This document shows positions 10,431 through 62,962 of a stretch of DNA of 64,000 bases, one piece after another (positions within the stretch are counted from its first letter, which is position 1; each line of letters starts with the position of its first letter). The translations under genes and the position numbers were made by a program. The notes beneath the pieces are model-generated. The model saw nothing but the letters and a program-made list of their open reading frames with translations. It did no database searches and had not been told where the DNA came from. The DNA is from Macrocystis pyrifera (Eukaryota > Sar > Phaeophyceae > Laminariales > Laminariaceae), in contig JASSKH010000010.1 in the NCBI GenBank assembly GCA_031763025.1, positions 15,090,085 through 15,154,084 on the forward strand, written 5' to 3'.

Positions 10431-10548
10431 CAAAAGTACCAAAACACCGTGTCGTAACTAAGAGCTCTTTCGCGGCACCGGTGTCATAAATAAGGAGTTA
10501 CGACACCAGTGCCGTAAAACGATACCAGTGCCGTAAACACCCACGTGT

Positions 10549-13706: not shown

Positions 13707-13729
13707 CTGCAAGTTCCTCCGACCCGGAG

Positions 13730-16387: not shown

Positions 16388-16946
16388 AATATACTATACT
16401 GGTAGCTAAAATGAAATGTTGTGGGGAATCGGAATTTGGAAACGACAGGCAGAAAAGTGCATGAGGGATACTACTGATTTACGGAAGTAAAATTGGTTTA
16501 TATAGGAACAGCATCTACGCTATTTTGTCAGAAGGCAAGCATAATAATAATATTAAATTGAACGGCATCTACGCTATTTTGTCAGAAGGCAAGCTTAATG
16601 ATAATAATAACATTATATTGATTTTTGAAGTGTCGACCCACGGGCCGGATCCGCGGATCGAACCCGCGGGTCAAGACAATAAATGCTCTCGTGGGTCAGA
16701 GTGACCCGACCCGCATGGAATCCGTGCCTCGCGGGCCAATCGCAAGGTGGCGGGTCGGGGTCAAAAAAATTTCGAATCTCACTGGTCGGGTCGGGTCGGG
16801 TCGGGCTAACAGGTTCTTAAATATCGCGGGTCGGGTCGGGTCGGGTCAAGAGGCTTTCAAAATCTCGCAGGGTCGGGTTGGATCAAGTGCACACACCTCA
16901 AAATTTTCGTGGGTCGGGTCGGGTCAGCTGACCCGCCCCGACCCGA

Positions 16947-18414: not shown

Positions 18415-18724
18415 CCGACCCGCGAGGTTTGACCTGACCCGCGAAAAGCCCTGATTTTTTCACCACAGTGTGGCTTTAGTTGCTAGGGCTCTGTCAGTCA
18501 CAGAATATCTGATATATATGCTATTCATCCAATCAGTTGACCACTCATGTCGTCGACGGCTGTCTTTAATTTGCTTTCCGTACGAGTATAACGAATTCTT
18601 GGTATGCGCATCAGGTATGTATGCACCAGGTATACAGCTAGCGTATGGCGTGGTACCGTATTTAGAGTTGCAACATACTCACAGCTATATTATAGCTGAC
18701 GTATAATAATTTCCTAGTTTTATT

Positions 18725-19150
18725 TTTTATAAATTTTGAAATACGTCAGCTGTGAGTTCGACTGATTAAATAGTTGATACTCAACTCTGCAAGCTGCGTA
18801 ATATACGCCTCGTATATATTCCATTTTTACCGAATTTTACATTTTATAAATTTTGAAATACGTCAGCTGTGAGTTCGACTGATTAAATAGTTCATACTCA
18901 ACTTTGCAAGCTGCGTAATACGTCTCGTCTGTATTATTCCATTTTCCCCGTTTTACAAGTATTGTGATATAAACCGAACGCGCGTATTCTATATGTAATT
19001 CCTTGTCAAAGATATAGGCCAGCGGCTCCCCTGGATGCTGCCCGGGTCAACAGGACAATTTTAAATAATCATTCTGCGCACTGATACTATATAATAACCC
19101 GAACAAGGGATAATGTGATGTTGCAACATGTTGCAACCTTTTATTAAAAC
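18725..19150. repeat. Dispersed repeat R1, uninterrupted copy with two ~118-bp tandem units
   Basis: Units starting near 18738 and 18856 share GAAATACGTCAGCTGTGAGT, TACTCAACT, GCAAGCTGCG and CTCGT words. They lead to CGAACGCGCGTATTCTATAT, GTAATTCCTTGTCAAAG and CCCCTGGATGCTGCCC. Another copy at 58530-58693 plus 61942-62110 is split by RLE LINE 3; a short piece lies at 62510-62600. An 18-bp palindrome, GTTGCAACATGTTGCAAC, lies near 19121. From 19150 to 19497 is presumed 5' flank of the GRK gene, without a recognisable promoter motif. Confidence 0.6.
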
Positions 19151-43217: not shown

Positions 43218-44351
43218 AAAAAAGTATGCATGATCAAATTATGCGAAGCGGACAGAAGTACAGAGGTCCATGATTGAATATTGCTTTTTTCATGACTACT
43301 GCAGTTGCAAACTGGCGACTTTCGATAATAATGCCAAGAGTCCCACCGCCATGCTTCAAGAGAAAACAGCTCGGATGCCACATACATACGCTTCGCGTCG
43401 CGGGCGGTTTTCCGCTAAACGCTCGCTCACATGTCGTACGTACGTACACATACCCCAGGTAGGGTACTTATTTTCTTCTTTCGATATGCTCTGTGTCTGT
43501 ACTCGTATGTACGAAAGATAAAGCACACAGCACGGCACAGCAACACAGCAAAAACAATGAAAATGAAACCGAAAATTTCTGAAAGAAACAAAATCCCCGT
43601 CCCCTTTCGTGTAATAATGTTTATTTACTACCTGATTGGAACACCTTACACCGGTCAAGAAGAAAAAAAGAAAAAAAGAATAAATGAAACAGCAGAGCTT
43701 CTCTCTCAGCCTCTCGTACGCCGCTCGCCCCTCTCGCGACCATCTCACCACCGATTCGGTCTGGGTAAAGCTTTCCTCCCTCTCTTCCACAGTGAGCCCC
43801 GTCGCCCGCCTCGCGTGAAGCCCGGTGCTCACCGTGGACCTCGTTCGCCAGCTCGACAATGTTGGTACTCAGACTGGGTTTAATTTTCAGCCCGGTTTGC
43901 AAAAATAAGCACCGCTTGAATATTATCTTACAATCCCGAACGACCCTTAAATACTCGTACGTACTCTATCAAATATCACAAATGGAGGCCAGACAGAGCC
44001 TATTGATGCATCCCTCGTGTCTCGAGGCACACGCGACACCTAGGTACGAAAGCGGCGACCGCGTTCCTCGCAACTCCCCCTCTACCCGCCAGCACGCGCT
44101 GACACCCGCGACGGTGCCGGGTTCGCCCGCGGCGCCGTGCTCGGAGTGCACGCACGCACACGAAACGAAGGAAGAAAAAAGCAAAGAAGGACTGAAAGTA
44201 CGAAGAGAAATAAATAAATAGAGAAAACAAAGACCCGTTGGAAAAATCCGGCAGGAAATGAAAGGAGGCGATTTCCAAATGGGAGCTCTCTGAGAGGCCA
44301 GCGATGTACCAACCGAGCACGCTCAGAGCATCGAGATCTAAGTAAGGAGTT

Positions 44352-45518
44352 CAAGGCGCTTCGCTCCACGGGCGGCCTACGCCGCCCGCTATACGCTCGC
44401 TCAGGAAGGAAAAGTACATCAAATTATGCGAAGCGGACAGAGGTCCATGATTGAATATTATTTTTTTGTTTTTTTCATGACTGCTATGTAGTTGCAAATT
44501 GGCGACTTGAAATGCCAAGAGCCCCGCCGCCATGATTCAGGAGAAAACAGCTCGGACGCCACATACGCTTCGCGTCGCGGGCGGTTTTCCGCTGCGCTCG
44601 CTCACAATGTCATGTCGTACGTACGTACACATACCCCAGGTAGGGTACTTATTTTCTTCTTTCGATATGCTCTGTGTCTGTACTCGTATGTACGAAAGAT
44701 AAAGCACAGCACGTCACAGCAACACAGCAAAAACAATGAAAATGAAACCGAAAATTTCTGAAAGAAACAAAATCTCCGTCCCCTTTCGTGTAATAATGTT
44801 TACTACCTGATTGGAACACCTTACACCGGTCAAAAGAAAAAAAAAGAAAACAAGAATAAATGAAACAGCAGAGCTTCTCTCTCAGCCTCTCGTGCGCCAC
44901 CCGCCCCTCTCGCGACCATCTCGCCACCGATTCGGTCCGGGTAAAGCTTTCCTCCCTCTCTTCCACAGTGAGCCCCGTCGCCCGCCTCGCGTGAAGACAG
45001 GTGCTCACCGTGGACCTCGTTCGCTAGCTCGACAATGCTGGTGCTCAGACTGGGTTTAATTTTCAGCCCGGTCGCAAAAATAAGCACCGCTTGAATATTA
45101 TCTTACGATCCCGAACGACCCTTAAATACTCGTACGTACTCTATCAAATATCACTAATGGAGGCCAGACAGAGCCTATTGATGCATCTCTCGAGTCTCGA
45201 GGCACACGCGACGCCCAGGTACGAAAGCGGCGACCGCGTTCCTTGCAACTCGCCCTCTATACCCGCCAGCACGCGCTGACACCCGCGACGGTGCCGGGTT
45301 CGCCCGCGGCACCGTGCTCAGAGTACACGCACGCACACGAAACGAAGGAAGAAAAAAGCAACGAAGGACTGAAAGTACGAAGAGAAATGGAGAAAACAAA
45401 GACCCGTTCGAAAGGTCCGGCAAGTAATGAAAGGAGGCGATTCCTAAGTGAGAGCTCTGAGAGGCCAGCGATTTACCAACCGAGCACGCTCAGAGATCGA
45501 GATATCTATAAGTAGTTC
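44352..45518 (+). mobile_element. Helitron-like element, copy F (full length)
   Basis: Starts CAAGGCGCTTCGCTCCACGG and ends AAGTAGTTC|TA. It is head-to-tail with copy E with no spacer. Hairpin GGGCGGC/GCCGCCCGC is nearly intact. It keeps the coding-like internal stretch on the minus strand (TGLTVEEREESFTRTESVAR). Confidence 0.7.
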
Positions 45519-45711
45519 TATACTATTGTGCACTAACTTGACGTATTTTCAACAGCGGGGCTATTAGAAGAGTTAGTACAGCAGTATAATATATAGATAT
45601 ATACTCGTTCCTGCTCTGTCGCCCTGAAGGCATAAAATAATACCAGGTATGCTCTTCTTGTCCACTTGACGCTCGTAGCGTAGCAGGCGGCAGAGCTAAA
45701 CGCCTTATACA

Positions 45712-45933
45712 GCATATCAAAAGAAGAAAATAAGTGCCCTACCTGGGGTATGTACGTACGTACGGCACGTGACTCTTGGCATTATCAAGTCGCCAATTTG
45801 CAACTACAACAATAAATCATAAACAAAACAATCATCGACCTTCTGTCCGCTTCGCGTATTTTGATGTACTTTTTTCCTTCCTGAGCGAGCGTAGCGGGCG
45901 GCGTAGGCCGCCCGCGGAGCGAAGCGCCCTTTG
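45712..45933 (-). mobile_element. Helitron-like fragment, copy G (hairpin end)
   Basis: Carries the terminal ~220 bp, including the perfect hairpin GCGGGCGGCGTAGGCCGCCC plus GC, and ends GCGAAGCGCCCTTTG|TA. Its other end is truncated in sequence near 45710. Confidence 0.6.
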
Positions 45934-45935
45934 TA

Positions 45936-46732
45936 GAGAATTACTTTTATAGATATCTCGCTCTCTGAGCGTGCTCGGTTGGTGTATCCCTGGCCTCTCT
46001 CAGAACTCCCACTTGAAAATCGCCTCCTTTCATTACTTTTGCCGGACCTTTCCAGAGGGTCTTTGTTTTCTCCATTTCTCTTTGCACTTTCAGTTCTTCT
46101 TTCCTTTTTTCTTCTTTCGTTTCGTGTGTGTGCGTGCACTCCGAGCACGGTTCCGCTGGCGAGCGTGGCACCGTCGCGGGTACCAGCGGGTGCTGGCGGG
46201 TAGAGGGGGGGTTGCAAGGAGCGCGGTCGCCGTTTTCGTGGTTGGGCGTCGCGTGTGCCTCGAGACACGAGGGAAGCATAAAAGGGCTCTGTTCCGGGCT
46301 CCTGGTGTGGTTCCGGCTATACTGTGGACGATTATATAAGGGTCGTTTTGATATGCAAAATAAAATCAAATGGTGCTTATTTTTGTGACCAATCTGAAAT
46401 TCATCTAGAGAACCACGCAGTCTGAGCACTAACATTGTCGAGCTGGCGAACGAGGTCGACGGTGAGCACCGGGCTTCACGCGAGGCGGGCGATGGGGCTC
46501 ACTGTGGAAGAGAGGGAGGAAAGCTTTACCCGGACTGAATCGGTGGCGACATGATCGCGAAAGGGGCGGGCGGCGTACGAGGCTGAGAGAGAAGCTCTGC
46601 TGTTCGATTTTTTTTTCTTTTTTTCTTTGTGACCGGTGTAAGGTGTTCCAAGCGGGCAGAAAATCGTTACACGAGAGGGATGGGGATTTTTTTTTTTCCA
46701 AAAAATTCGGATTCATTTTCATTTTCATAATA
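45936..46732 (-). mobile_element. Helitron-like element, copy H, cut by RLE LINE 2
   Basis: Begins TA|GAGAATTACTTTTATAGATA immediately after copy G, in the same orientation. It follows the family to CGGATTCATTTTCATTTTCA, where the 3' tail of RLE LINE 2 starts. The remaining ~380 bp, including the hairpin, are not found on the far side of the LINE. Confidence 0.6.
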
Positions 46733-47187
46733 ATAACTAGTATTATGCTTGCCTTCCGACAATATATAGCGTAGATGCCGTTCCTATATAAACCGAATAT
46801 CCTTCCGTAATTAAGTAGTATCCCTCATACACTTCTCTGCCAGTCGTTTACCAATTTCCATTCCCGCCCACATCAACTCATTTTAGCTACCGGTATAGTA
46901 TATTAATACTACTATTATACTTGCCTTCCGACAACATAGCGTAGATGCCGTCCCTATTTAAATTAAATACCCTTCCGTAACTCAGTAGTATCTCTCATGC
47001 ACTTACTTCTCTGCCAGTCGTTTCCAAATTCCCATTCCCCACAACATTTCATTTTAGCTACCAGTATAATATATCCTATTCCTCATCAACGTTCCATCTC
47101 CATGTCATTGGCCGCGTTCCTCCGGCTTCTTCCTCCCTTCCCCTAGCGGCCTGGCGGTCCCTCAGGGCTAATTTATACATGTGTACT
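46733..47187 (-). repeat. RLE LINE 2 3' end with tandemly duplicated 3' UTR
   Basis: 47165-47100 matches the end of the endonuclease coding region of LINE 1 (CTAGCGGCCTGGCGGTCCC and CCATGTCATTGGCCGC in reverse). Below it the ~175-bp 3' UTR appears twice, each ending in GGAAGGCAAG followed by an AT-rich ATAATA tail. LINE 1 has one full unit plus a short partial copy of the terminal GGCATCTACGCTATTTTGTC segment. Confidence 0.75.
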
Positions 47188-47937
47188 TGTTGATTGATCC
47201 CTAAATGTATAGGCGCAGCTGGCACGGGAACGCGTGGCTGACTCCAGACATGACACGGAACTCCTCTTATATTACATCCTCGCTGTAGAGTTGACTCGCC
47301 TCACATGCAGTAGAGGGTTCCACCTGACGAGTGGCATTGGTGGGCACACATTACCCCGATATCCCAATACCCTACTGCCGGAATCCCTTTCCAGCTTGGA
47401 ACTCCCCAATCTACCATAGATCTTATATGTCGTGTATCTGAGAAAAATCAACATCCCCCCTACTCAATATACACGACCATACTCATATCCCCCCTGCTCC
47501 TGTGCATGAGCAATATTCCCCTCAGCTCTGTACATGAAAATGTACGACATCGCAGAGCTGATACATCTCAATAAAAATATCAAATCGAATCAAACTCAGA
47601 AAGTCAAAAATCCAATCTGTAACTCAAAAATCAAATTCTTGAATCACCACTCAAATCCTCAAATCAGTATTCAAATACTCAAATCCCCAGCCTCTCTGTT
47701 GCAAACAAATAAAACTCTCGAAATCCAATGCCAAGTAAAACGGCATTCATCTCGGATTCAGTCAGGTAAAACGGCATTTTCCGCGGAATTGGTCCAAAGA
47801 TATTTAGTGGAATCTCGTCAACTTCGTACAGTGATCTCCGGGGCCCTCCCCTCGCCAAACGCTACTGGTGTCTACGGGCACACTATCATAATCCTTCGTA
47901 TTGTCTCCAGCGCGCACGCTCGAAAAAAACAACTTAC

Positions 47938-48010
47938 GAATTCGGCGAGACTTCAACTCCCGACCCACCCTAGGGAATCATATAGCACTACCTGCTAGAC
48001 CACTCAGTCA
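47938..48010 (-). repeat. tRNA-like relic inside the LTR element
   Basis: The complement reads GACTGAGTGGTCTAGCAGGT, then AGTGCTATATGATTCCCTAG, and later CGGGAGTTGAAGTCTCGCC. The order resembles a D arm, anticodon arm and T arm of a tRNA or tRNA-derived SINE, but stems are poor. Confidence 0.3.
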
Positions 48011-49779
48011 GTACTGACTTTGAACAAAAGCACAAATTTTCAAGAACCAAAAAAAATCAAACTCTCAATTTCCGAAATACTACCCAAACCTTCCAAATCA
48101 GAAAACATTTCCTATGGACCGCACACGCCCCCAGGCGCTTCATAGTCTCTCTTCAACCTTATCAAAAAAATCTCCCTCTATTTCATGAGGAATTAATGCA
48201 AATCATATAAATATCACAGCGCAGTAGTCCTACTCATCAAAAATAAAAATTAAGCCAAGAAAATAAATGCCAGAGATCGCAAGGAACCCCGTTCCCCCGG
48301 ACAAGGGTCTCCCCTTGTCCCCTACTCCCGCCATAGATACACAGATCGCGACGGTAAAGCGAGATAGCATACATTCCTTCACTTGAATTTTATTTGATAT
48401 TGAAACTACTCGAAAACTCCAGTAACTCTCGCGGACTCCAAATCGACCAGAAAAACAATTCCAAAATACAAGCACTGAAAATATTCATCCAGATTCAAAG
48501 GCAACCACATTTCAGTAAGAATCACCCCGATGCCCCGAACACTACTGCTGTTGCCTTCGCCGCGGCTGCCTCTCCGTTCGGTCTCATGGCGTCACCGCAG
48601 CTCGGGTCATCCAGCTATTCCTCCTGGGTGAAATCAAACGTCGCCTCCGCAGCATTGACTCGGCATACAAAAGGGATGGGACGTGCATTCGAGCGATTAG
48701 GTCTGCATATGCACTGCTTGCAAACTCCTCTTTGGTATAGTTAAGTTCTCAAATGCTACTGCAAATAAACAGCTACCTGTAAACGAGAATATCTGGCCCC
48801 ACATCAAACCCATGTATTCCTCGACCACTATATATGCAGCAGTACATACTTGATGAACGTATACAGCAGTGCCAAGTTAACAATTTTCGTCTCAGCTCAC
48901 AGCAGTACCATACTACTTCTGCTGCTGCTGTACTCGTATAGTATATTACTCTGTCCGCAAATATCTTGCCTTTAGCACGTAACAAGTGGCGCGGGTCGTG
49001 CTACACACCAACCCAACAACTCAAAAACGAGATACCCGCATACAAAGATGTAAATATGTGAAATGCCGCAAACAGACGCGTTGCTGTAGTTGGGCACAAG
49101 GGTTCATCACATACACCTCTTCCTGCTGTACTCGTGTCGATGCTCAACCAGAGCCCTCGACCAGTCAACCATAAAACAGACAGACGTCATAGTCCTACAG
49201 CAGTGCGTCTACAGAAAAACCTCAGTGAGGGAAGCTATACGTATACGTATACGTCTGTTAATCTCATTTCATTTCATTTCCAGTATTCCCAAATAAATCT
49301 GAATTTCCAATTTTCGCAGATTCTCTCCTACTCTCAAATCGATACACAATCAATTTCAAAACAAAAATCACCACAGCAGTCAATCAACAAAGCCAAACGT
49401 GCCTGGTGCGGACGTAAGTCCTTGCCAGTGGCGCCTCGGTCCCTTCTCTTTCCGCCTCTCTCTTGGGGCACCGCATCCCTAACAGATGATGATGCAGACT
49501 CCTCCCCCTGCGCCCATCTTCACTCTCCCTCGACTCCTTCCTCGGGGGGGCAACGTCCCCCCCATCAACCACCTGCGGGCGTGGTGCTTCAGCGGTCCAG
49601 GCGGATTCTGCCAGAACGCTTTAAGCGTCGCTCCCGCGGTCTCCACCTTCCCTCCCGGCTCCTGCCGGCTAAACTCCCTCTTTCATATAATAATATACGT
49701 TCTACATTTATGTCGCCAGCGCGCAGCGAGCCCACAGGTTCAGGCAGATGCAGGGTTCTACACTATTTGACCTTGTCAT

Positions 49780-50180
49780 GGGCATGTCGTGGCATTGCCA
49801 TGGTACCGCCCATGGCATACCATGGCATCACCACGGCATCCCATGGTGTGGCATAAGATTCCATGGCACGCCGTGCGGTTGCCATGACATGCCATGGGTA
49901 GTACCATGGCAACCCCCGCGGCTACCGCCACGGCACTCCATGGCAATCCCACGGCATATCACGGCAACCCCCACGGCACCCCAATGTCCACGGCACCTAG
50001 GTTGGGGTTGGGGTTAGGGTTAGGGTTAGGGTTAGGGTTAGGGTCCCATGGTATGCCGTGGAGGTCCGTGGAAGGTTCCGCATGGTATGCCGTGGAGGTC
50101 CGTGGAAGGTTCCGTGGTATGCCGTGGAAGATGCCGTGGAAGGTTTTGCCGCAGGTGGTGCCACGGCATGCCCCGGCATG
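49780..50180. repeat. CCATGGCATGCC-rich array flanking a telomere-like run
   Basis: Left half (to 49996): many variants of CCATGGCATACCATGG and CACGGCA. Right half (from 50045): about four units of CCATGGTATGCCGTGGAGGT CCGTGGAAGGTTCCG type, of about 41 bp. The two halves are roughly inverted relative to each other around the telomere-like run. Confidence 0.7.
50000..50044 (+). repeat. Interstitial telomere-like repeat, GGTTGG then (GGTTAG)n
   Basis: Two GGTTGG units followed by about five GGTTAGG-phase TTAGGG units, ending GGGTCCCATGG. It is internal to the LTR element, not at a chromosome end as far as this window shows. Confidence 0.85.
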
Positions 50181-50587
50181 TTGCGAAAAATGTCAATAAT
50201 GTACATACCTCCTCACGAAGCACATCATCTAAAAAGAATAGACATGCTGGAAGCAGGTTCCCGCCTCTTTGGGCTGGCCTGGGCTACGCTTGCCAATAGA
50301 AGATCACCGGTCCCACTAGTGTGTTGATTGATCCCTAAATGTATAGGCGCAGCTGGCACGGGAACGCGTGGCTGACTCCAGACATGACACGGAACTCCTC
50401 TTATATTACATCCTCGCTGTAGAGTTGACTCGCCTCACATGCAGTAGAGGGTTCCACCTGACGAGTGGCATTGGTGGGCACACATTACCCCGATATCCCA
50501 ATACCCTACTGCCGGAATCCCTTTCCAGCTTGGAACTCCCCAATCTACCATAGATCTTATATGTCGTGTATCTGAGTACAATCAACA

Positions 50588-51446
50588 GTACTCTGCGCGA
50601 AATCGCGACCTGTGTGGTCACGGAGATGATCTGGAAGAGGCGTTCTTTGCAGACGCCCTTCCGCGCCAGGGACGATCCGTCCGTCCGTCCGACTATGCTT
50701 GCCGCCAACTGATCAATTAGATCGCTGCCTTCCTTTCCGAGGCGCCCAAAGCTTTCCACCGCGAGGGTGGCGAGTTTGTAGCTGCGCTCGTCGAAGGACA
50801 CCTGTCCCGGACGAGCGTAGCGACTGCGCTTGCGCGCCTCAGAAGTGGAAGCAGCTGATCCGTCTCGGTCACCGCTGCCTGCCCGCATGTGGACCCCCGC
50901 TTGTGGGTCCGCGTACGTGACGTCGAGAAGTATCGCTTTATCGCGATACTCTGATGCCGTAGCATCTCGAAGTCCTCCTGCCTCGATGATGATGTCCATG
51001 CGGAGATCCCTGTTTGCGTGGAAGGGGGCTCCGCTTTCCATCTGGTGGTGGATGGACATCCTCTTGAAGGTGCGGGAGAGCGCGTGCACCAGAGGCTGGT
51101 GGTGGTTTACTTGCGCGCCCGATCGATGGCATAATCGTGAATGTCGCGTATCAGCCTCCGTTGGACCGCAGCAGGGGCACCTTGCTGCCAGGAACTCCTC
51201 AATCCCCAGAAACCACCGTCCCGCAGCCACAAACTCTGACGGTGGGATGACTCTGGCCGAGTCGACAGGTCTCGCCCTTAGGAATGCAGTAGCCCCTGGT
51301 CCCGATTGGCTCCGTTGCCGGGCCTTGGCCAGACTCCTCGACTCTTTCTCTTCTTGTGGGTTACCCGTGCCTCGCTGGGTCGTCGTCTCGACGGGGAGCT
51401 GGTCCAGTGAAGCAACGAATATCTCACAACGGACTCGGTTCACCAG
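50588..51446 (-). pseudogene. RLE LINE 2: CCHC knuckle and restriction-like endonuclease
   Basis: One open frame from 51443: RYVASLDQLPVE-like linker, FLAARCPCCGPTEADTRH with SRLC (CCHC knuckle), HHQPLVHALSRTFKRM, then RMDIIIEAGGLRDA ... KAILLDVTYADP (PD-(D/E)XK-like core with both acidic positions kept), and SFDERSYKLATLAVESFGRL. The frame then runs into the inserted LTR element, which displaces its last ~35 residues (present in LINE 1 as RYKLALRDRQAARG through MTWGW). Confidence 0.75.
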
Positions 51447-51467
51447 CTTCCCCAGTCTATGCTGCGC

Positions 51468-52163
51468 TTAGCTGGAGCTGATAGATTCGGCATCGTGTGC
51501 CGGCAACACTTCCGCAACCGACAACCCTGAGGCCTCTTGTTCTCCTCCTCGAAATGCTCTATCCCGCCAGCTTTCCGGCACGATGTTCGCCATGGCTTCT
51601 TCTGAAACCCCATGCACATCGCGGAGGTCCCTGATGCTGTTCCAAATGCACCGGACGAGGTCTGAATCGGGGAGCTCCCTTCGGACTTTGTCCCCGATAG
51701 CGCCGAACAGGTCAGCAAGCACCTCCGGCACCGTCGCTGCCAAGCTTCCGACGGACTCGGACATCCTCCGAGCTTCAGCCGACGCCAGTCCAAACCCTCC
51801 GGCCCCCGTGGTCAGTCTTGCCTGCGCCTGTTGGTAGGGCTGCAAGACCAACTGATTTGTTGGGTACCCATTCTCGAAGAACGACGTTTCTTCTGCTGTC
51901 CCCGGGAGATCAAGCAATTTCTCCAGCATCCACATCGCGTTGCCGTCTTCTTTTAGGCATGCGGGCAGGGGCATTTCCGGGTCCATCACTCTTTCTATAT
52001 TAGCGGCCCGTTGCACTATAGAGCCGGTGGCGATTAGGTTAGCTGCTTGCTTGTCTGGCATGCGCGGTGGAATCCGCGCGAGTTGTTCCGCTCTCCCGTT
52101 GTAGACTATCTCCATTGCACTCTCCATCGCGTATTCGTCGGTGCCGACGGGAACCCCAACCAC
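51468..52163 (-). pseudogene. RLE LINE 2: post-RT helical linker
   Basis: 231 residues in the same frame as the RT, separated from it only by TAA after PTPE. Includes KQAANLIATGSIVQRAANIE, KLLDLPGTAEETSFFENGYP and LADLFGAIGDKVRRELPDSD. It ends ISSS followed by TAA, after which the reading continues in frame toward the knuckle (AQHRLGKLVNRVR). The same two TAA codons are present in LINE 1 and absent in LINE 3. Confidence 0.65.
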
Positions 52164-52217
52164 CTTTACTCCACCCCGTTCCGCGATGCGGACGCCAATA
52201 CCTTCAAGAAGGGAGAT

Positions 52218-53219
52218 TTATTCCGGCGTAGGTACGTGCCCCTTCGGGGGCAAGGCAACCGTTTTGCTCGGATTGATTGCAATGCCAATGTTGGACAGCT
52301 CACGCTGTAGGAAAGGCACAACTTCCACAGTATCGGGTGTGATTTCCATCATTCCGATGCTGATGTCGTCTAAGTAGGCGAATGCCTCCACTCCTTTTGG
52401 CTCGAACTCCGCTCGGGTCCGCTTGAGCACCGGTAAGAGAGGCATGCAGAACAACGCCGGCCCCATGGCATCCCCTTGCTGTACCCCACTGGAGCATTCG
52501 ATCTTGCGCCTTTCTCCCGATTCCACCTGGAAGAACACGGGAGCAGTTCTTTCCCCGTAACACTTTGTCACGAACGGTGTAAGCGCAGGCGCGCAGGTGG
52601 CTACCTCTGCATGCACAGCCGTCCGTTTCACGGTGTTGAAGGCGTTGGAGCAGTCTGTGAGAATCAGCCAGTCTTTTGCCTCGTGGTGTACCCGGGCGCG
52701 TAGCGCTACCTGCTCCACCCCCCCTCGTAGTCCGACTCCGCACTGTCTTGCCTCGCGGTTGTTCTCCTCCAGTCGTGGTCGCCACTGCCGCATGGTCCCG
52801 GCTGTGAGAAGGCGTCTCCATGTCATCCCTACGCAGACGGGGCGGCATTTTTCACCCAAGGCAGTAAGGTTGGATTGCAGGAAAAGCTGCCAGAATTCCG
52901 GTGGAAAGGCGTTTGGATCGTCGATAATTCTTCTCCAGAAGGCTTCAATGCCAGCCGCGAAGTTTTCGCGCCCAATGCCGGTCCTGATAATTGACTGCAG
53001 GTGCGAAAAGCGCAAGTCATCGCTTCCTGCGCCTGATAGCGCGTTGCGAGAGAGTTGATGACTTCGAGGGCCACCTATGGGTCGAATTCTTCCTCCGGGC
53101 GCCACTTGGGCCCACTCCCTTCCTCCGGGTCGGGAGAACTTGCAGCCACCGCTGCCGCTGCTGCTTCGGAGACGGCGGTCTGATCCTCCTCCGGGAAGTT
53201 TGCTTTCACTCGCTCCCAC
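52218..53219 (-). pseudogene. RLE LINE 2: reverse transcriptase domain, open through all core motifs
   Basis: 333 uninterrupted codons. ALSGAGSDDLRFSHLQSII opens the domain; FPPEFWQLFLQSNLTALGEK and RPVCVGMTWRRLL follow. Motif A is LTDCSNAFNTVKRTAV; motif B is ECSSGVQQGDAMGPALF; motif C is FAYLDDISIGM with both aspartates; motif D is GIAINPSKTVALPPKG. This is the best preserved polymerase in the window. The family resembles R2/CRE-group LINEs in having a C-terminal RLE rather than an N-terminal APE endonuclease. Confidence 0.8.
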
Positions 53220-53659
53220 GTTTCCTCGCTCCCCGGCGCGCGTGGTTCCGCGAGGAGGCTACGTGCTGCGACAGTCACCCCCCCTGGATGGCGGCATGGT
53301 GAAGACGCCCTCTTGAACAGATCAGCGTCCGTCACTTCGCGAGGTTGACCCCTCTGTCTTGTCGATGTTCGACGGGTATACTCTATTAACCACGGGAGTA
53401 GAAGGGTGAGATCACCGCGTTCGACAGACGAGAACCTCTCGCGCCGCTTCACTCGGCCATCCTGCGAGTGCAGTAGAGCTAGGAGGATCCAAAGCTTGAT
53501 TGACCTCAAGAGTGAGGTCGGCGTCTCCGACTGTCTGTGTGGGCGATGCTCTCCCAGGGCGTGGTTATGGAGGCCAAGTACGTGGGTGATAAGCTTGGCG
53601 TCAGCAGTAGCCAACCTGACGGCACTTTAATAACAGTGACGAAGCGTTGTTGGAGGTCC

Positions 53660-54142
53660 TCAAGGGGAACATCGTCGAGTGGTCCTGCGATTCCAAACGT
53701 ATTTTGGTCCCAGAGATAGATAGAGGAGAGCATCCCAGCGCCCATCCTCGCGGTCGTCAGGTCTCCCTCCGAGTCCCGCTGCCGTAACGCTCAGTCCGGG
53801 GTCTAACTGAACTGCCGCTTCTAGTGCTTCCCGTCTTCCATGACGAGCTGTGCATCCCCTAGCGCCGCAGAGCAGCGGCACCTGCGCCCCGCCTCGCCTG
53901 ACTGCATTCACCACGCACCTCGCATGCATTGCATGTTGACGTCCACAAGGTAACCCCACCACTCGGTATCCCCGAGCAATCGTTGCCCTACAACCCCCGC
54001 AGGTCGTACCGCTTTGGTCGCCTGCGACGAAAGCGCGAAGTTGCGATACGCTCCCTGGTGCTGGACCTCCTCCTTCTCCGTCCCTTCCTTCCCTGCGAAA
54101 TTCACTCTCTCCTTCGCCACCCCCTTCCTCGCCAGGGGCCAT
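53660..54142 (-). pseudogene. RLE LINE 2: RING-like zinc module before the RT
   Basis: CGGCRATIARGYRVVGLPCG, then RQHAMHARCVVNAVRRGG, then VPLLCGARGCTARHG: CX2C ... HX2C ... CX4C, as in LINE 1. This module is conserved between the two copies although the flanking linkers have diverged, so it was probably functional. Confidence 0.65.
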
Positions 54143-54689
54143 GGGCGGCTCACCGCTCCCGGGTCGAGAGATTCTCCCCCGGCTCGTGGCGACCCCGCTT
54201 CCACTTATCGCCGCTCGTGATCCCCTTCCAGATCCGCGCGGTCGACCTCGCCTGCCTCTTGCGCTCCCCTCACCCCCTACTGCGCCGGTGGGCGTGGAGA
54301 CAGTTGCTCTAGTTGTTGCCGGGGTGATACTGGGTTGTGTCAGAGGGTGGAGCGAGCGTCCCGGCGCCGTGGTCTCCCTGTCCCTTGCGGTGTGGGGGTT
54401 CTCCGGGGCTACGGAAGCAGCATGTCCTGGCTCCGCCTGTCCTGTTCGCCTTCTGGCGATGGGGCTTCACCTCCCGGTGGTGTCACTTCCGCTGGTAAAG
54501 GGTTGCTCTCCCGCGCCGGTTCCGTCCCTTCCGTTGTGGCTCCCGCCGTCGTTGGAGTGGCATTGGGCTGTCTTGGGAGGGGGGACAAGTGTCCCGATGC
54601 CGTGGTATCTCCATCTCCGGCAGTGCGAAAGTTCTCCGCGGCAACATAACCAGCATCTCCTGGCTCTGCCTGCCGCCTCACTCACGGGT

Positions 54690-55600
54690 CGCCTTCATAC
54701 ACCGAAGCCTCTCCTACTGACAGCGTCACCCTCGCTGCTAATGGACCGCTCTCCAGTGCCGGGTCCGTTCCTTCCGCTGTTGCCCCCGCCGCCGTCGGAG
54801 AAGGAGGCAGCGCGTTCCCTGGCTCAAACACGTTTGTGGACCCTAGGGTCCCCGCCTCCGTCGGAAAAGGAGGCAGCGCCTCCCCTGCTTCCAGCGCGTT
54901 TCGGACCCCTAGGGTCCACCTCGTCAACCGGTCTTCCCATGTGGAGTCGAGGCCCACCAGAAACTCTTGGACATGGGGTAGGATGTAGATCCTCCGATTC
55001 TGGAGCCGGAGCACGATGTCCTGCGGTCGGATACCATACGCGGCGAAAACCTCACGGTAGTGACCGGCTGCCGCTCGCCATCCCCTTGGTCGGGGGAAGT
55101 CGAGGTAGGCTCCCTGGGGCAGGCCGAGAGCATCGCTGAACAGGGTGCACAACAGGAACGAAGAGGTTGGACTTCCCCCATGGGTCCTCACCATCTCTTC
55201 CCAGGTATTGTGGGAACCAGTCGTGACGTAACTGGCCGGCTCCAGGCGGGGGCCGTCCTCCTCCAAGAGTTCTGCGAACTGCAAGGCTCCTGCTACCGCA
55301 GACCACCTTCCCCCTAACCGTGGCCTTGGAAGGTCCTCAGCCAGCTCCGCTGGATGGAGCGGCCGGTTTCTTGCCGGCCATTCAGAGCGACACGACACGC
55401 AGCGCATGGCTGTGGGTCTGCTTGCCCTCTCGTAGGGCATTCCGCACGATCCAGCATGCAGTGGGCATGCACTTGCTCTCCATTGGAGCGCGGAAAAGAT
55501 GCCCATAAAGAATCTACCGCCAAATCTCCAGTAGATTCCTCTAGAGCCCGCCCGCAGTACGTGCAGGGAGAGGCACCCCTGTTCCCCACATTCTGACGCC
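54690..55600 (-). pseudogene. RLE LINE 2: zinc module and domain X, repeat 2
   Basis: In one frame the zinc part reads CTYCGRALEESTG ... HAHCMLDRAECPTRG ... PQPCAACR; the following domain continues in the adjacent frame from about 55440. Domain X (about 200 residues) contains LEPASYVTTG, GGSPTSSFLLCTLFSDALGL, PQGAYLDFPRPRGW, FAAYGIRPQDIVLRLQNRRI, PHVQEFLVGLDS and RLTRWTLGVRNALEAG. I do not recognise the domain. It matches repeat 1 upstream at well over half of positions by eye. Confidence 0.6.
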
Positions 55601-55614
55601 TTTCTACTTCACTC

Positions 55615-56441
55615 CTAGTGTCTACCTCCCTGCCCACCCGGTCCCATCTGTAACTGGTCACTCTCCGGCACCCTGTCCGTTCTCTCCGACGTGGTTGCCA
55701 CCGCCGCCAAAAAGGGAGGAAGCGCGTCACCCGTCTCCAACGCGCGTTGAACCCCGAGGGTCCACCTCGCTAAGCGTTCTTCACATTCGGCGTCAAGGCC
55801 TACCAGACACTCTTGGACATGTGGTCCGATGTAAAGTCTTTGATTTGGAAGTCGGAGCAGGACGTCCTGCGGTTGAATGGCATATGCCGCGAACATAGTA
55901 CGGTAATGGCCGACCGCCACTTCCCATCCCCTCGGTCGGGGGAAATCGAGGTATGCACCTTGAGGCATGTCTAGCGCATCGCAAAACAGGGAGCACAGCA
56001 AGAACGAGGAGGTCGGGCTCGCACCATGGGCACGTAACATGAGCTCAAACATGCCGAAAGCGCCAGTTGTGACGTAGCTGGCTGGCTCCGGTTCGGGGTT
56101 GCCCCGCTGAACGCGGGCGGCGAACTGCAGGGCGCCCCTCACCGCCACCCACCTTCCACCGTGCTCATTCATGGGCAGCCCTCTGGCTAGCTCTGCCGGA
56201 TGGGGAGGTCGGCTTCCTCCCGGCCACGCCGAACGACACGTAACGCAGGGCTTAGGGTCTGTATGCCCTCTCGCGAGGTGTTCCGCGCGGTCCAGCATGC
56301 AGCGGGAGTGCACAAAGCCTCCGTGGGCGCACGGAACGGGTACGCGAACGCAGTTGTCTCTGACTCCCCAACAGAGCCATCGAAAGGCCAACCGCAATAA
56401 GTGCACCATAAATCGTCGGACTCCTCTAACCCCCCTTGCAC
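55615..56441 (-). pseudogene. RLE LINE 2: zinc module and domain X, repeat 1
   Basis: The zinc part is split over two frames: CTYCGWPFDGSVGES, then HSRCMLDRAEHLARGHTDP with KPCVTCRSAW. Domain X follows: EPASYVTTGAFGMFEL, GASPTSSFLLCSLFCDALDM, PQGAYLDFPRPRGWEV, MFAAYAIQPQDVLLRLPNQR, PHVQECLVGLDAE and RLARWTLGVQRALETG. The duplicate pair suggests an internal duplication of a 270-residue unit in the element's N-terminal protein. Confidence 0.6.
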
Positions 56442-56575
56442 GCCCTGATTCCCTTCAACCTGGCTCGCGGCCTCCTCGACACCGGATTCCAGTGATCTCT
56501 ACAGTGTTTCCAACTGTCTCTGTTGGTGCGCACCCTCTGCGGTAGTGCGGTCGTACCTCAAGTGAAGCCTGGGCA

Positions 56576-57445
56576 CTATTGCCGTGAGCCGGAACGTTCT
56601 ACGAAGTGGCACTCCTGTCCCTCCTGGGATAGCCACCCCAAACCGATCGCCTCCCCTACGGTCTGCCCTCTCCACGCTTTCTGTGGCACATCTCCTGTGA
56701 ACGAGCCAGCCACCAAAAGCAAACCGCTGGTCATCCTCCATGTGCCTGTTACAGGCCCCACACGGCGCTTGCGCCTGCGGCTGGGGGGTTGTGCCACGCC
56801 ATTCTCCTTGTATGTCCTCCTCGCCTCGCTCTGTGGCGCTCCTTGATAAATCCACCGTTTCTGGAGTAATTTGGACCCTTCTGATGAGGCGGAGCTCGGC
56901 AGCGGTGACCCTGTCTCTGTGGCGCTTTCTTCTGCCGTGTCCACCGATCTGCCGAGAGCTCGTATCTGTTGGAGGAGGAGGTGTAGATCCACCTCTGGAT
57001 GCTCCTCGTGCAGGGCTGGATTTGGGCACGTGACTTGGTGTACCCCATCGAAAGTCCTGGCTCGGGGAAATGCGTCTTTGCAGACTCCTAGAGCACAACG
57101 GCGGTGTACCCCGCACAAACAAGACACTTGTACGCAGGCCGTCGCCTCAACCAGACCGCGACAAATGCTGCATATCACTCGCCGCCTCCTCTCACCTCCT
57201 GTGGTCCCTGTTGGTGCTTCCGCTCCTCCGTTAGCCGGAATCTCTTGCTGTGCGATCGTTAGCGCCTCTACCATAACTTCATTGCTGTGTTGACGTAGCG
57301 CCATCCTGTCGGCCTCGTTGATCGTTACGGTCGCTCTGCACGCCAGGCACCTTAGGTTGGCCCCCGCCCTGACTCTGAGTGCGGCGTAGCATGGAAGATG
57401 CAGTCGATGGGGGCAGCTCCCTAAACATACAATCGGGGCGGCCAA
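56576..57445 (-). pseudogene. RLE LINE 2: RING finger pair in the N-terminal protein
   Basis: A 289-codon frame. First module, residues about 5-40: CLGSCPHRLHLPCYAALR ... LRCLACRA (C3H-type RING end). Second, residues about 85-150: VICSICRGLVEATACVQVSC, LCGVHRRCALGVCKDAF ... CPNPAL. About residues 225-250 and in the overlapping frame: CGACNRHMEDDQRFAFGG with HRRCATESVERADR, a third zinc module. RING-type fingers are common in ubiquitin ligases; here they may instead bind nucleic acid or host proteins. Confidence 0.6.
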
Positions 57446-57454
57446 GGTCTCGTA

Positions 57455-58226
57455 TCAGACACTACAGTCCTCCGTGACTTCCTCCCGGAGATGATCTTCT
57501 ACGGGCGACGGCGAAGGTGTCCGTAGCGGCGACGGGGGCGATTCGGATGTCGGCGCGAGTGCCAAACTACTTCCTTCCAGCATCCGTGTGGACGTCGGCC
57601 GTGACGGCCTTGGTAGCGCCGATTGTGTCGTCCTGACCGCTACCTGCGATGGTGCTTCGACCACAAGGACCATACCCGGTGTCAAAAGTGGTTCCGCTGT
57701 CGAAGGGAGGCCAGCTGTCGGTAGCACTGGTGACGATGGCTGCGACGGCGACGGTGACGGGCTTGGCGATGACGCTTGGGGTGGCCTGGTGGACGGAGAG
57801 GTATCTGGCGACGGTAGCAGTGCCGTCGAGGGGGTCGATACGGGCACCGATATGGTTGGAGGAGGCTGTATCGACGGTTGAGATTGCCCCCTTGATGGAG
57901 GATGTAGTGGGCGCGACACGAGCACCGTTGGTTGCGCTGTCGGCGGCGTAGTAGACCACGGTGATTGTTGCTGCTGCGGTGGCGGTAGCTGCGCAGGCCC
58001 TGGTGTCTGGGGTGGTACTTCTCCCGATACCGGTAAACCTTCTATGACGAGTATTCTTGACCCCCCAAGGGAAAGTGGGGTCGTCAGGGGTGGCCCCGAT
58101 TCCGTTGTCGGCAACTGTAATGAACCAGGCGTATCTAGGGATTCTTCCGGCAACGACGGAAGTACTGGCTGCAAAGACGTTGCCAACGGCGCCATCCGCG
58201 TCATTGTTGACTACTTGTACCAGCAT
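57455..58226 (-). pseudogene. RLE LINE 2: Pro/Ser/Thr-rich N-terminal segment
   Basis: Two overlapping minus-strand frames. The 249-codon one (58204-57455) is rich in Pro, Ser and Thr (for example PPTISVPVSTPSTALLPSPD) and contains no domain I know. It may be a disordered N-terminus or untranslated leader of the LINE. Upstream, 58227-58435 is GAGGTGAAGGTGCAA-rich simple sequence. Confidence 0.4.
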
Positions 58227-58529: not shown

Positions 58530-61500
58530 TAGTTTTTACAAAATTATGAAATACGTCAGCTGTGAGTTCTATCGATTAATAAGCAGTTGGTACTCAACTT
58601 TGCAAGCTGCGCAATAATAAGTCTCGTATATATCCAATTTTTACTGAATTGCACAAGTGTTATAATAAGGCGAACGCGCGTATTCTACATGTATATTTTA
58701 TTTTTATTTTTATTAGGCTTGCTATCCGACAATGTGCAGCATGAGCTTCACCGTTGATCAATCAAAACATCCCTGAAAGAAGCAATGCCCGGATACAAGG
58801 GAAACCTATGCACAAGGTCTATCTATCTGCTATGGCTACTTCCTTTATGCTTTATCTACGATACTCTATGTGTTGTCTTTACTCCTTCCTACATCTTACT
58901 ATGTGCTCGCTACTTTCTATTCGTAAATCCTAAGCCGCATCCAAGCTCTATCCCCACGCCATCGGTGTGGGTCTGTCATCTCCCCCCCCTCTGCCCCTTC
59001 TCGATTCCTGTCGACTCCTAAGCTGGAGTCTAAATCGCGATACCCTCTTCGAAATGGCAACCTGTGTAGTCACCGAGACGGTTTGGAGTAGGCGTTCCTT
59101 CACCAGTCCTTTCCTTCCCATCGACCCACCATCCCTCCCCCCCACGACACTAGCTGCCAGCTGGTCGATGAACTTACTGCCCTTTACCCCTAGACGCCCG
59201 AAGCTTTCCACTGCTAAAGTGGCAAGTTTGTGACTCCGTTCGTCAAAGGACACATGTCCCGGACGAGCGTAGTGTTGGCGCTTGCGCGCCTCGAAGGTAG
59301 AGGCAGCTGATCCACATCGTGATCGGCACTGCCTCATCGCAGGTGTATCTGCGCTTGGGGGTCAGCATGGGTGAGTGTCCAGCAGGATGGACTTCTCCTT
59401 GTACTCCCTACTAGGAGCATCCCGTAGATCTCCTCTCCTGACGACAATGTTCATCCGCAGGTTTCGGTCTGCAGTGAACGGTTCGCCGCTTTCCACTTAG
59501 TGTGGAATTCCCAGCCGTTTCAAAGTACGGGACATCGCGTGGACGAGCGGTTGGTGTTGGTTTTCTTGTGCCCCTGCTCTGGGACAGATGCGCGCGTGGC
59601 GAGTGTCCACGTCGACTGCATCGCAGCAGGGGCACCTCACTGCCACGTGTTCCTCTATCCAAATGAACCGCATTCCCATGCCCACAAACTCTTCTGCGGG
59701 TATGACCCGGAGTGAGTCCGTTGGTCTCGCCCGAAGGCATGCCGTGGCTCCTCCCCCCTGTAGGCTCCTATAGCGAGCCTTGGCGAGGGCTTTGGTTTCG
59801 GTTCCCCCCATTGGGTCGCTCGGTCCCGGGGGGCGTGCTGTCTCCGGGAGCTCCTCCAGCGAGGCAGCGTGGACTGCGTACCGACGTTGGTTTACCAGCT
59901 TGCCCAATTTCTGTTGGACTTTGCGTAAGTTCGTGGATATGGCGTCGTGTGCAGCCAGCATGTCGGCCTCTGGAGGTCTTGGGGCCAGGTCCCCCTCTGC
60001 GCCTAGACCCCATTCTAACCAAAATTCGGGGACGATGCCCGCCATCGCTTCCTGTGACACCCCCCATGTATCTCTAATCTCCCGCAGGCTGTCTCTCAGC
60101 TAAGCAATGATGCTCAATTCTGGGAGCCCCCTCTTCACCTTATCGCCTAACGGGCCTGTGAGGTCTGCTAGGACCTCCGGCAAGGTCCCCACCCTGCTTC
60201 CGATGGATGCCGACATTCTCCTTGCTTCTGTCAACGGCAGCCCCAACCCTCGCGCTCCTGTAGAAAGGCGTGCTGTGGCTTGCTGGTAAGGTTTGAGAGT
60301 CAGCCGACTATCTGGGCACCCCTCCTGGACAAACGGTTGTGCCTCCGCTGCTCCCGGTAGTTCGAAGATTTTCTCGCACGCCCACTGCGCTCCATTGTCT
60401 GCTCTTTTGCATGATTCGAGGGAAAACCCCGGGCCCAGAGCCCTTTCGAGGTAACTCGTCCGTTGCCCGAGAGATTCGACGGTGATGAGGGCCGCCGCTT
60501 GTTTGTCGGGCATGTTAGCGAGGCAGCGCGCAAGATGGTCCGCGCCCCCATCCCTCACTACCTCCATTGCTCGCCCCCGCACGTATTCTTCCATGCCGAT
60601 CGGGACACCCACCACATCACCCCTCCATCGTCTGCGATGCGGACCTCAACGTTTTCAAGGAGCGGAATCTCCTCCATCGTCGGGGCGTGCCCTTTTGGTG
60701 GTAGTGCCATTGTTTTGGCGGCGTTGACCACAATGCCGATGTCATCTAGCTGTCGTCGGAGGAAGGCGAATGCTCTAATCGTGTTGGCCGTGATCCCTGT
60801 AAGGCCGAGAGAGACATTGTCCATGTACGCGAAGGCTTCCACTCCTTCTCTCTCGAATTCCTGCCAGAATCGCTTCAGCCCCGGTCGCAACGCCATGCAG
60901 AACATTGCTGGTCCTATGGGGTCCCCTTGCTGGACACCGCTGGAGCAAGCGATCGTCCTGGTCTCTCCTGAGTCCGTCCGGAAAAAACACGTCTGCTGGT
61001 CTTGTGCCGCAACACTTGGCCACTAAAGGCGTGAGCGCTGGCACGCATTTTGCCACCTCTTCTAGCTCCGCCGTCCTTTTCACGGTGTTGAAGGTGTTGC
61101 AGCAGTCCGTGAGAACAAGCCAGTTGTCCGTCTCGTGTAGCATCCTAGCCCTCAATCCCACATGCTCCACTCCCTCGGGTACGGCGACCCCAGACTGCCT
61201 CACCTCTCGGTTACCTCCTCCAACCGCGGTCGCCACTGTCGCATAGCCCCTGCGGTGATGAGCCTCCTCCATGTCTTACCCACGCAAACCGGTCGGCACT
61301 TTTCCCCCAACGCAGTGAGGCTCGACTGCAGGAAGAAGAGCTGCCAGAACTCTGGCGGGAACGCGTCCGGCTCGTCAACGATTTTCCGCCAGAAGACTGT
61401 CATACCACTTCCGAACTCCTCTCTGCCGATATCGGTTTAAATGATGGATTGTAGATGAGCAAATCGTTGGTCGTCGTTTCCGGGGCCTGAGAGGGCGCTC

Positions 61501-62110
61501 CGGGGGTTGATGACGTCGAAGAGCACCTCGGAGGCGTACTCATCGTCAGGGTGCCACGGGGGGGCGCTTCCGTCTTCCACCTCGGTGGCGCTCGCCAGCA
61601 CTGCGGCCGCCGCCGCCGCGGACACGGCGGCGTGGTCTTCGAGAGGGAACTTGGCCACCAATGTATTCCACGTTTCCTCGTTCCCCGCTGATCGTGGTTC
61701 TGTCAGACGGGTGAAGGTTGCGTGCTGCCACTTTGACCCCTCCCGCGTGGCGACACGCCGACGACGCTCGTTCGAGTTTCGCCTCTTCTGAAGCTTCCTG
61801 GGCTGTATCTCGTTGTCTCAAGCCCTCTCTCCTGGTGTACGCTATCAGCCATGGGAGCAGGAGCACTATGTCCCCGCTCTCCACCAGCGCAAACCTCTGT
61901 CGCCTCTTTATCCGGCCGTCCGGTGAGTGGAGCAGGGCGGGCATGTAATTCCTTGTCAAGGATATAGGCCAGTGGCTCCCCTGGATGCTGCCCGGGTCAA
62001 CAGGACAATTAAAATAATCATTCTGCGCACTGATACCATATAACCCGAACAAGGGAGAATGATTTGACGTTGCAACATGTCGAAACCTTTTCATTTTACA
62101 AGTATTGATT
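58530..62110. repeat. Dispersed repeat R1, copy split by RLE LINE 3
   Basis: The left part, 58530-58693, has AAATACGTCAGCTGTGAGT ... GCGAACGCGCGTATTCTACA. The right part, 61942-62110, resumes with CATGTAATTCCTTGTCAAGG and CCCCTGGATGCTGCCC. The order matches the intact copy at 18.73-19.15 kb exactly. CATGTA is present at both junctions as the target duplication of the LINE. A further fragment lies at 62510-62600. Confidence 0.7.
58694..61941 (-). mobile_element. RLE-type LINE copy 3, diverged, 5'-truncated, with target duplication
   Basis: Insertion into repeat R1 is exact: CATGTA at 58688-58693 and 61942-61947. The 3' end is GATAGCAAGCC followed by a (TAAAAA)-type tail. It carries the pre-RT segment, RT pieces (PDAFPPEFWQLFFLQSSLTA, VCVGKTWRRLITAGAMRQW, LTDCCNTFNTVKR, FAYMDNVSLGLTG), post-RT linker (KQAAALITVESLGQR), knuckle (CPCCDAVDVDTRHARIC) and endonuclease tail (SFDERSHKLATLAVESFGRL). 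Motif C reads YMDN instead of YLDD. Frame changes and a TAA before the endonuclease show it is dead. It is a distinct subfamily from copies 1 and 2, judging by amino-acid divergence. Confidence 0.8.
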
Positions 62111-62709: not shown

Positions 62710-62714
62710 TGTAT

Positions 62715-62962
62715 GTAGTTGCAAATTGGCGGATTGATAGTGCCAAGAGTCCCGCCGGCATGCTTGAGGAGAAAACAGCTCGGACGCCACATACGCTTCG
62801 CGTCGCGGGCGGTTTTCCGCTACGCTCGCTCACATGTCGTACGTACGTACATACCCCAGGTAGGGTGCTTATTTTCTTCTTTTGATATGCTCTATGTCTG
62901 TACTCTTATGTACGAAAGATAAGGCACAGCACGGCACAGCAGCACCGCCAAAACAAAGAAAA
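62715..62962 (+). mobile_element. Helitron-like internal fragment, copy J
   Basis: Matches copy A from GTTGCAAATTGGCGGATTGA through CATACGCTTCGCGTCGCGGG, CGTACGTACATACCCCAGGT and AAGATAAGGCACAGCACGGC. It lacks both termini and is cut at 62962 by a LINE fragment. Confidence 0.6.

Follow-up and report, generated by a model that had tools for sequence, protein, structure and literature searches.

We analysed a 64,000 nt stretch of DNA from Macrocystis pyrifera (contig JASSKH010000010.1), called the window below, with positions counted from its first letter, and found that a long interspersed nuclear element (LINE) in it encodes six predicted zinc modules (M1 to M6) and a duplicated domain, here called X, in its own open reading frame (ORF) ahead of the reverse transcriptase (RT). 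The element appears to be a LINE of the restriction-like-endonuclease (RLE), R2-like kind, the RLE part being assigned by motif only. Four related copies are present in the window (A and the fragments of D on the plus strand, B and C on the minus strand; Table 1), and copy B alone among them reaches the N-terminal region with which this report is concerned. Copy B has one in-frame stop, in M1, plus several frame breaks, and copy A begins just downstream of the second X (X2) and has M6 as its sole module. The best explanation we can offer, to which we give about an even chance, is that of an RLE LINE with one long ORF, in which the zinc-module array and X would dock the ribonucleoprotein (RNP) on host proteins or chromatin.

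The assignment of the modules and X to the LINE was decided by two relatives. When genome contigs were scanned with alignment A2 of X, 23 pattern matches reduced to two loci, L001 and L002, both in the metagenome-assembled genome (MAG) JALZUP, which is labelled as the bacterium Robiginitomaculum. L002 is a single stop-free frame of 1927 aa, which from its 5′ edge encodes the end of M1 (CPTCR), M2 (residue 76), M3 (210), M4 (330) and one X (~425-560), followed by an Arg/Gly-rich linker, M6 (751), the RT (~1065-1345, Pfam RVT_1 E = 7.8e-16), a knuckle (1696) and an endonuclease-like part up to residue 1927. The first 34 bases of the L002 contig are repeated directly after, which is an assembly edge, and thus the frame probably runs on beyond the contig. 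L001 encodes a 1110-aa frame, open at both ends, with the second half of M1, M2, M3, M4-X1 and M5-X2, together with a portion of the linker toward M6; it is collinear with window positions 57422-54852 (73% identity) and 54404-54066 (70%) and ends ahead of M6 and the RT. The last residues of L001 (~3257-3331), at the contig edge, depart from the family order and resemble a more upstream portion of the Arg/Gly-rich linker (window 54235-54173), possibly an assembly or duplication effect.

Since L001 and L002 encode the same layout without stops, the modules and X are part of the LINE, as a reading of the window made from the sequence alone (the sequence-only reading) had proposed; in the near-complete L002 the modules are in the same ORF as the RT. 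The family has two layouts, with one module-X unit (L002) or with two (L001 and copy B). By adding L001, L002 and the N-terminus of the window copy, the full ORF would be ~2,200 aa with one unit and ~2,500 aa with two. L002 is a single ORF from the contig edge onward, while the part upstream of M1 is known from the window alone, so that a separate upstream ORF is possible there. That the modules and X instead come from a neighbour of the LINE, either a gene of the host or a different mobile element, might be suggested by copies A and C, which lack the region from M1 to X2, and by copy B, which is broken into several frames. We consider this very improbable, as L002 fuses modules and X to the RT in one frame, copies A and C are 5′-truncated insertions, and the order recurs in L001 together with some of the linker that leads to M6; no separate host gene or element with these domains was seen, eukaryote genomes lying outside the search.

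The two JALZUP contigs are probably eukaryotic contamination, because X was found in only one of the 137 genomes of the MAG's family, JALZUP itself, and because other JALZUP contigs match the window. RT/RLE sequences were found in 2 of 385 genomes sampled from the MAG's class, namely JALZUP and a weak match (genome G152; E = 8e-4, 31% identity, three stops). Window positions 3052-3986 match a further JALZUP contig (C407, L010), including a gag-like-looking frame (54% protein identity over 106 residues), and this match supports a presumed shared eukaryotic origin of the JALZUP contigs. JALZUP gave no match to a 1.1-kb repeat that is dispersed through the window, and therefore a same-species origin of the window and the JALZUP contigs is not claimed. 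A search of JALZUP with M1 returned the two known contigs plus one match at E = 0.15, and no contig with sequence upstream of M1; no relative was confirmed among IMG/VR viral contigs. The core bacteria of macroalgae given in PMC10233909 include Robiginitomaculum, which fits, without showing, an algal source; the MAG names used in that paper do not fit JALZUP.

All zinc motifs quoted in the sequence-only reading were found on the minus strand, but the number of modules is six and not about five. We regard M1 to M6 as putative cross-brace-type zinc modules, RING-like by ligand pattern, with M1 also PHD-like and zinc-ribbon-like. M1 of copy B reads CSV*YETL..CPHRLHLPC..CLAC, with an in-frame TGA at 57457-57455, and M1 is complete in no copy seen, since the window copy has this stop in the place of ligand 2 and those of L001 and L002 are cut by the contig edge. 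M1 of L001 reads C-x-H..H-x2-C...CPACR, and the second half of the module ends in CPACR in L001, CPTCR in L002 and CLACR in the window. M2 has the ligand order C4-H-C-C-H, M3 is a half module, and M4 and M5 are RING-H2-like but end in C-V/L-x-C instead of CPxCR. Eight ligands in C3H2C3 order, with H-x4-H, are complete in M4 of L001 and L002 and in M5 of L001; M6 has the C3H2C3 order but a wider last pair (C-x4-C). The claim that the last module is conserved in a further copy was borne out by M6 of copy A (Table 1).

To gauge chance, three patterns, written after the modules had been seen and tolerating a stop at ligand 2, were compared with 200 dinucleotide shuffles of the region. Across all six reading frames of the 64 kb, the full cross-brace pattern matched three times, each time within a LINE copy (at M1 and M6 in copy B and at M6 in copy A), and it had no match in the shuffled region (0/200). 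The half pattern matched nine times in the window, six times at modules and three times elsewhere; the region itself had five matches (shuffle mean 0.27), a count that none of the 200 shuffles reached. The third pattern had four matches in the window, two of them outside the LINEs, and its count of two in the region was reached in 1 of 200. M4 of copy B was matched by none of the three, because of its frame break. When L001 and L002 were compared, all of the 22 putative zinc ligands (end of M1, M2, M3 and M4) were identical, with 257 of 561 aligned residues identical overall (46%) and cysteines kept in 18 of 24 columns; the ligand identity is the strongest evidence that the modules may bind zinc. 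In hhalign comparisons M6, M4 and M3 were mutually in register (E = 0.0026, 0.026 and 0.028; probabilities 12%, 2% and 2%), which gives weak support to a possible common descent.

The profile searches placed the modules near RING families at scores below the Pfam cut-offs. Pfam zf-RING_2 matched M6 at E = 0.00017 in L002 (22.2 bits) and with 17.8 bits in the window, the half M1 of L001 matched zf-RING_4 (E = 0.0011) and others, M2 of L001 matched zf-RING_2 at E = 1.9, and M5 had a weak match to zf-Vps39_C (E = 3.4). Among solved structures the best sequence matches of the window M1 were two AIRE PHD entries (E = 0.037 and 0.047), the alignment with AIRE PHD1 having E = 0.037, while Pfam gives M1 no PHD match; lower matches were a viral E1 protein (E = 0.78), taken as chance, and the RING-like NSMCE1 (E = 1.1). 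A weak match of M3 to DUF2175 (E = 0.013) was rejected.

A CPxCR end is a mark of active RING ligases. The array could be read as a ubiquitin ligase in which a host E2 is brought in by M1, perhaps with M6 and M4, while X holds the substrate; the LINE would then mark proteins of host defence or of chromatin, or else its own RNP. The window M1 is in RING-H2 order apart from the stop, L001 and L002 carry CPACR and CPTCR, and the weak RING matches fall on M1 of L001 and M6 of L002. This reading nevertheless appears improbable to us, given that no Pfam score reaches its cut-off, M4 of L001 being without any match, that the best solved-structure match of M1 is the AIRE PHD finger, that the window M1 ends in CLACR, that M4 and M5 lack the CPxCR mark, and that M6 has the odd C-x4-C end. 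Its fuller form seems a shade less probable still: a LINE-encoded multi-module ligase whose RING-like modules would bring a host E2 while the duplicated X would determine the substrate (histones, a silencing factor or the RNP of the element itself), the mark aiding the choice or opening of an insertion site or escape from silencing. Were such activity real, we know of no earlier LINE-encoded ubiquitin ligase, and none was found in a search of the open-access literature.

X follows M4 and M5, as the sequence-only reading had described, but is ~150 aa long rather than ~200. The X1 core (56136-55711) and the X2 core (55290-54865) share 59% identity over alignment A1 with tails and 67% over A2, and the two copies compare as coding sequence, with a ratio of nonsynonymous to synonymous divergence (dN/dS) of 0.26 in frame vs 1.37 and 1.11 in shifted frames, and with codon-position differences of 31/27/61 over 142 codons, third positions differing about twice as often. 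TetR_C_18 was rejected as a relative of X (X1 frame, E = 0.04, 14.7 bits vs a cut-off of 33.1). Selection was then measured on copy B against L001 for the N-terminal part and against L002 for the rest (Table 1); shifted frames in these comparisons gave values mostly near or above 1. The in-frame values point to purifying selection on the modules and X (dN/dS 0.10-0.34), except for the decayed M5, whose higher ratio (0.52) fits the loss of two ligands in the window and not in L001. L002 residues 816-1060 gave 0.25 against copy B. Copies A and B are ~5% apart and mostly decayed; between them, values of 0.47-0.66 were obtained for the frame immediately ahead of the RT, for the RT and for the frames that follow it.

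The downstream half of the element carries the RT motifs QGD and YLDD, and the nearest solved chains to the RT are, weakly, the R2 proteins 9nl3/9dou (E = 0.0021 with L002, E = 0.08 with profile A8). A knuckle CX2CX8HX3C is present in copies A, B and C and in L002, with a spacing one residue short of the CX2-3CX7-8HX4C given for the R2 group in PMC5678591. Downstream of it a region R-MD...LLLDVTY...ARKR is conserved between copy B and L002. This C-terminal region is a putative restriction-like endonuclease by motif only, and it had no PDB sequence match. No APE endonuclease family of Pfam was matched in the sequences P0001 and P0002 (E up to 10) or in window 58210-57458 (E up to 1), no RNase H in P0001 and P0002, and no Ulp1-like protease in P0001, P0002 or the window N-terminus. 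C2H2 and Myb families gave no match in P0001 and P0002 (E up to 10, weak matches mostly filtered) or in the window N-terminus.

The insertion sites bear on what the array might recognize. Copy C lies inside a repeat with an empty homologue at 18718-19142, has TACAT on both sides and lacks its 5′ part. Copy A lies inside a different repeat, with an empty homologue at 31180-31881, and the two copies have no shared target. GACCC-rich repeats at 11688-12100, 16621-16945 and 31180-31996 represent the target of copy A. A 3′ motif close to TTGTCGGAAGGCAA, then A/T-rich sequence, is common to copies A, B and C and L002, with small changes in A and C. The 5′ truncation, the short duplication at copy C and the shared 3′ end are as expected of target-primed reverse transcription. 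No rRNA or U2 snRNA gene was found in the window at Rfam gathering scores.

In the mechanism that we propose, a cross-brace-type zinc array with X would replace the C2H2/Myb DNA readers of R2, and the array would dock the RNP of the element on host proteins, most likely chromatin. Docking of this kind would lead to dispersed, non-sequence-specific insertion, after which the RT and nuclease would act as in R2. Chromatin is suggested because of the module type, the dispersed insertion of two copies and the precedent of PHD fingers in other LINEs. As a class, cross-brace modules have mainly protein ligands, which counts against the alternative that the modules and X are nucleic-acid binders, comparable to the zinc fingers in R2 and Utopia, that hold target DNA or the RNA of the element. 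That alternative, which we judge unlikely though credible, is favoured by the Arg/Gly-rich linkers seen by eye before M6 and by the zinc ribbon as best Pfam match of the window M1, as well as by the target-DNA binding of R2 N-terminal fingers (as described in PMC10499050) and the N-terminal zinc fingers of Utopia (as described in PMC4640811); it is disfavoured by the lack of C2H2 or Myb matches noted above for P0001 and P0002 and by the absence of a shared target between copies A and C.

Several results weigh against docking by such an array. No module scored above its Pfam cut-off (best 22.2 bits vs 27.3, M6 of L002 with zf-RING_2), although the term 'RING-like' of the sequence-only reading is fair as a ligand pattern; M4 of L001 had zero Pfam matches, and the window M1 had, below cut-off, a zinc ribbon as its best match (E = 0.0046), ahead of zf-RING_5 (E = 0.0096) and two further RING-like families. 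X had no accepted match in Pfam, NCBIfam, PHROGs or PDB sequences, with nothing better than E = 0.017 among the last. Of the checks that had been suggested, the Pfam search thus gave sub-cut-off RING matches, and structure prediction gave only two unusable AlphaFold models (mean pLDDT 42.0 and 42.6) that provide no fold evidence and with which Foldseek found nothing at E ≤ 0.001. As for selection, dS is near saturation for M6, the RT and the thumb, which makes their dN/dS ratios rough; the X1-M5 linker gave 0.96 in frame vs 0.86 and 0.41 in shifted frames, and thus no constraint was seen there; and two frames ahead of the RT, 54466-53663 and 54681-54469, which are mostly low-complexity linker, gave 1.47 and 1.51 when copies A and B were compared.

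Table 1. Copies of the LINE in the window and parts of copy B; dN/dS values are those of copy B against its relatives.
Feature	Positions	Strand	Description	dN/dS
LINE copy A	12100-16620	+	5′-truncated; M6 at 12852-13001, RT, endonuclease-like part; 95% identical to copy B	
LINE copy B	58204-46738, interrupted	-	decayed copy	
LINE copy C	58694-61942	-	diverged relative, 65% DNA identity to copy B; 5′-truncated after M6; TACAT duplication	
LINE copy D	10548-11686	+	diverged fragments of a further relative	
N-terminal Pro/Ser/Thr-rich region, copy B	57458-58204	-	first ATG of frame to stop inside M1; P 22%, S 17%, T 11%	
M1	57338-57466	-	RING-H2/PHD-like cross-brace pattern; TGA at place of second ligand	0.14 vs L001 over 35 codons
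M2	57008-57172	-	C-x2-C-x13-C-x-C-x2-H-x2-C...C-x5-H; kept in L001 and L002	0.13
M3	56688-56762	-	CGACNRHMEDDQ; C-x2-C-x17-H-x2-C half module	0.34
M4	56236-56405	-	CTYCGWPFDGS; RING-H2-like; frame break in copy B, intact in L001 and L002	0.34
Domain X1 with HPAEL lead-in	55711-56235	-	A2/A3 alignments	0.19 vs L001
M5	55390-55565	-	CTYCGRALEES; decayed copy of M4; ligands 3 and 4 missing in copy B, present in L001	0.52
Domain X2	54865-55389	-		0.10 vs L001
Low-complexity linker X2-M6	54066-54864	-	54404-54066 matches L001 2803-3141	0.59 for the matching part
M6	53852-54001	-	CGGCRATIARG; RING-H2-like, C-x4-C end, just ahead of RT part	0.13 vs L002
Reverse transcriptase	52221-53051	-	Pfam RVT_1 E = 5.7e-15 on 52218-53258	0.09
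Linker/thumb region	51471-52217	-	aligns to L002	0.11 over L002 residues 1346-1690
CCHC-like knuckle (CX2CX8HX3C) and restriction-like-endonuclease-like region	50589-51467	-	51227-50600 75% identical to L002	0.16
C-terminal end and 3′ untranslated region, copy B	46738-47187	-	resumes past 3.4-kb insert; carries 3′ motif TTGTCGGAAGGCAA	

The open frame at the N-terminus of copy B runs from 58210 to 57458, with its first ATG codon at 58204, and lies outside the coverage of L001 and L002. The 3′ part of copy B is interrupted by a 3.4-kb element (47188-50587) with 266-bp terminal direct repeats (2 mismatches, TG...CA ends) and the 5-bp flank GTACT on both sides, the longest listed stop-to-stop frame of which is 264 aa (49062-49856); it looks like a long-terminal-repeat retroelement, and TTAGGG units run at 50000-50044 within it. 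Elsewhere in the window, a dispersed repeat of up to ~1.2 kb occurs many times and in both orientations, with copies mostly 80-90% identical, at 4663-5800, 30042-31114, 32039-32789, 33672-35041, 43233-46723 and 62710-62962, and a 32-bp tandem array of ~13.6 copies is located at 3243-3683.

R2-like LINEs are under development as gene-insertion tools, in which the N-terminus is the target finder. If the docking mechanism holds, an old LINE branch can move from choosing targets by DNA sequence to choosing them by host protein, and the element would represent a natural RT-nuclease core with different targeting.

With the R2 group (R2Bm, R2Tg) the element shares an RT that is weakly nearest to R2, a long ORF, a CCHC-like knuckle followed by a nuclease-like C-terminus, and zinc modules at the N-terminus. 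It differs in having six cross-brace-type modules and domain X in place of any C2H2 or Myb match, in a knuckle one residue shorter, and in the location of the two mapped copies (A and C) outside 28S rDNA. In R2 itself the N-terminal zinc fingers are described as binding target DNA (PMC10499050). Utopia elements are described as having one to three N-terminal zinc fingers, and domains have been gained upstream of the RT in related lineages, namely RNase H in oomycete Utopia and an Ulp1-like protease in nematode elements (PMC4640811). The element resembles Utopia and NeSL as an RLE LINE with N-terminal zinc fingers and, as in some of their lineages, extra domains upstream of the RT; in contrast to them, it has no RNase H or Ulp1 protease match and the window no U2 snRNA gene, although the Ulp1-like protease of NeSL is confined to nematode members and is not found in all members. 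The evidence does not support placing the element in R2 proper, Utopia or NeSL.

CR1/L2 LINEs carry an N-terminal PHD finger, sometimes in a single ORF with the RT, for which a steering of integration has been proposed without functional study (PMC4120745). The N-terminal cross-brace zinc module is the point of likeness; CR1/L2 elements, as that paper presents them, have an APE endonuclease and one PHD domain per subgroup, whereas the present element has six modules, with the module-X unit duplicated, and matches no APE family. The RING-H2 ubiquitin ligases are similar in the ligand order of M1, M4 and M6 and in the weak zf-RING matches of M1 and M6, and they differ in that the scores here are sub-cut-off, with none for M4 of L001, and in that the modules are part of a retrotransposon protein. 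No LINE with RING-like modules was found in the open-access literature search, Repbase and eukaryote genomes not being covered. Judged by this literature comparison, which did not extend to Repbase, the layout of modules and X would be a new variant among RLE LINEs, and it suggests host-protein contact of a kind not described for the relatives of this LINE.

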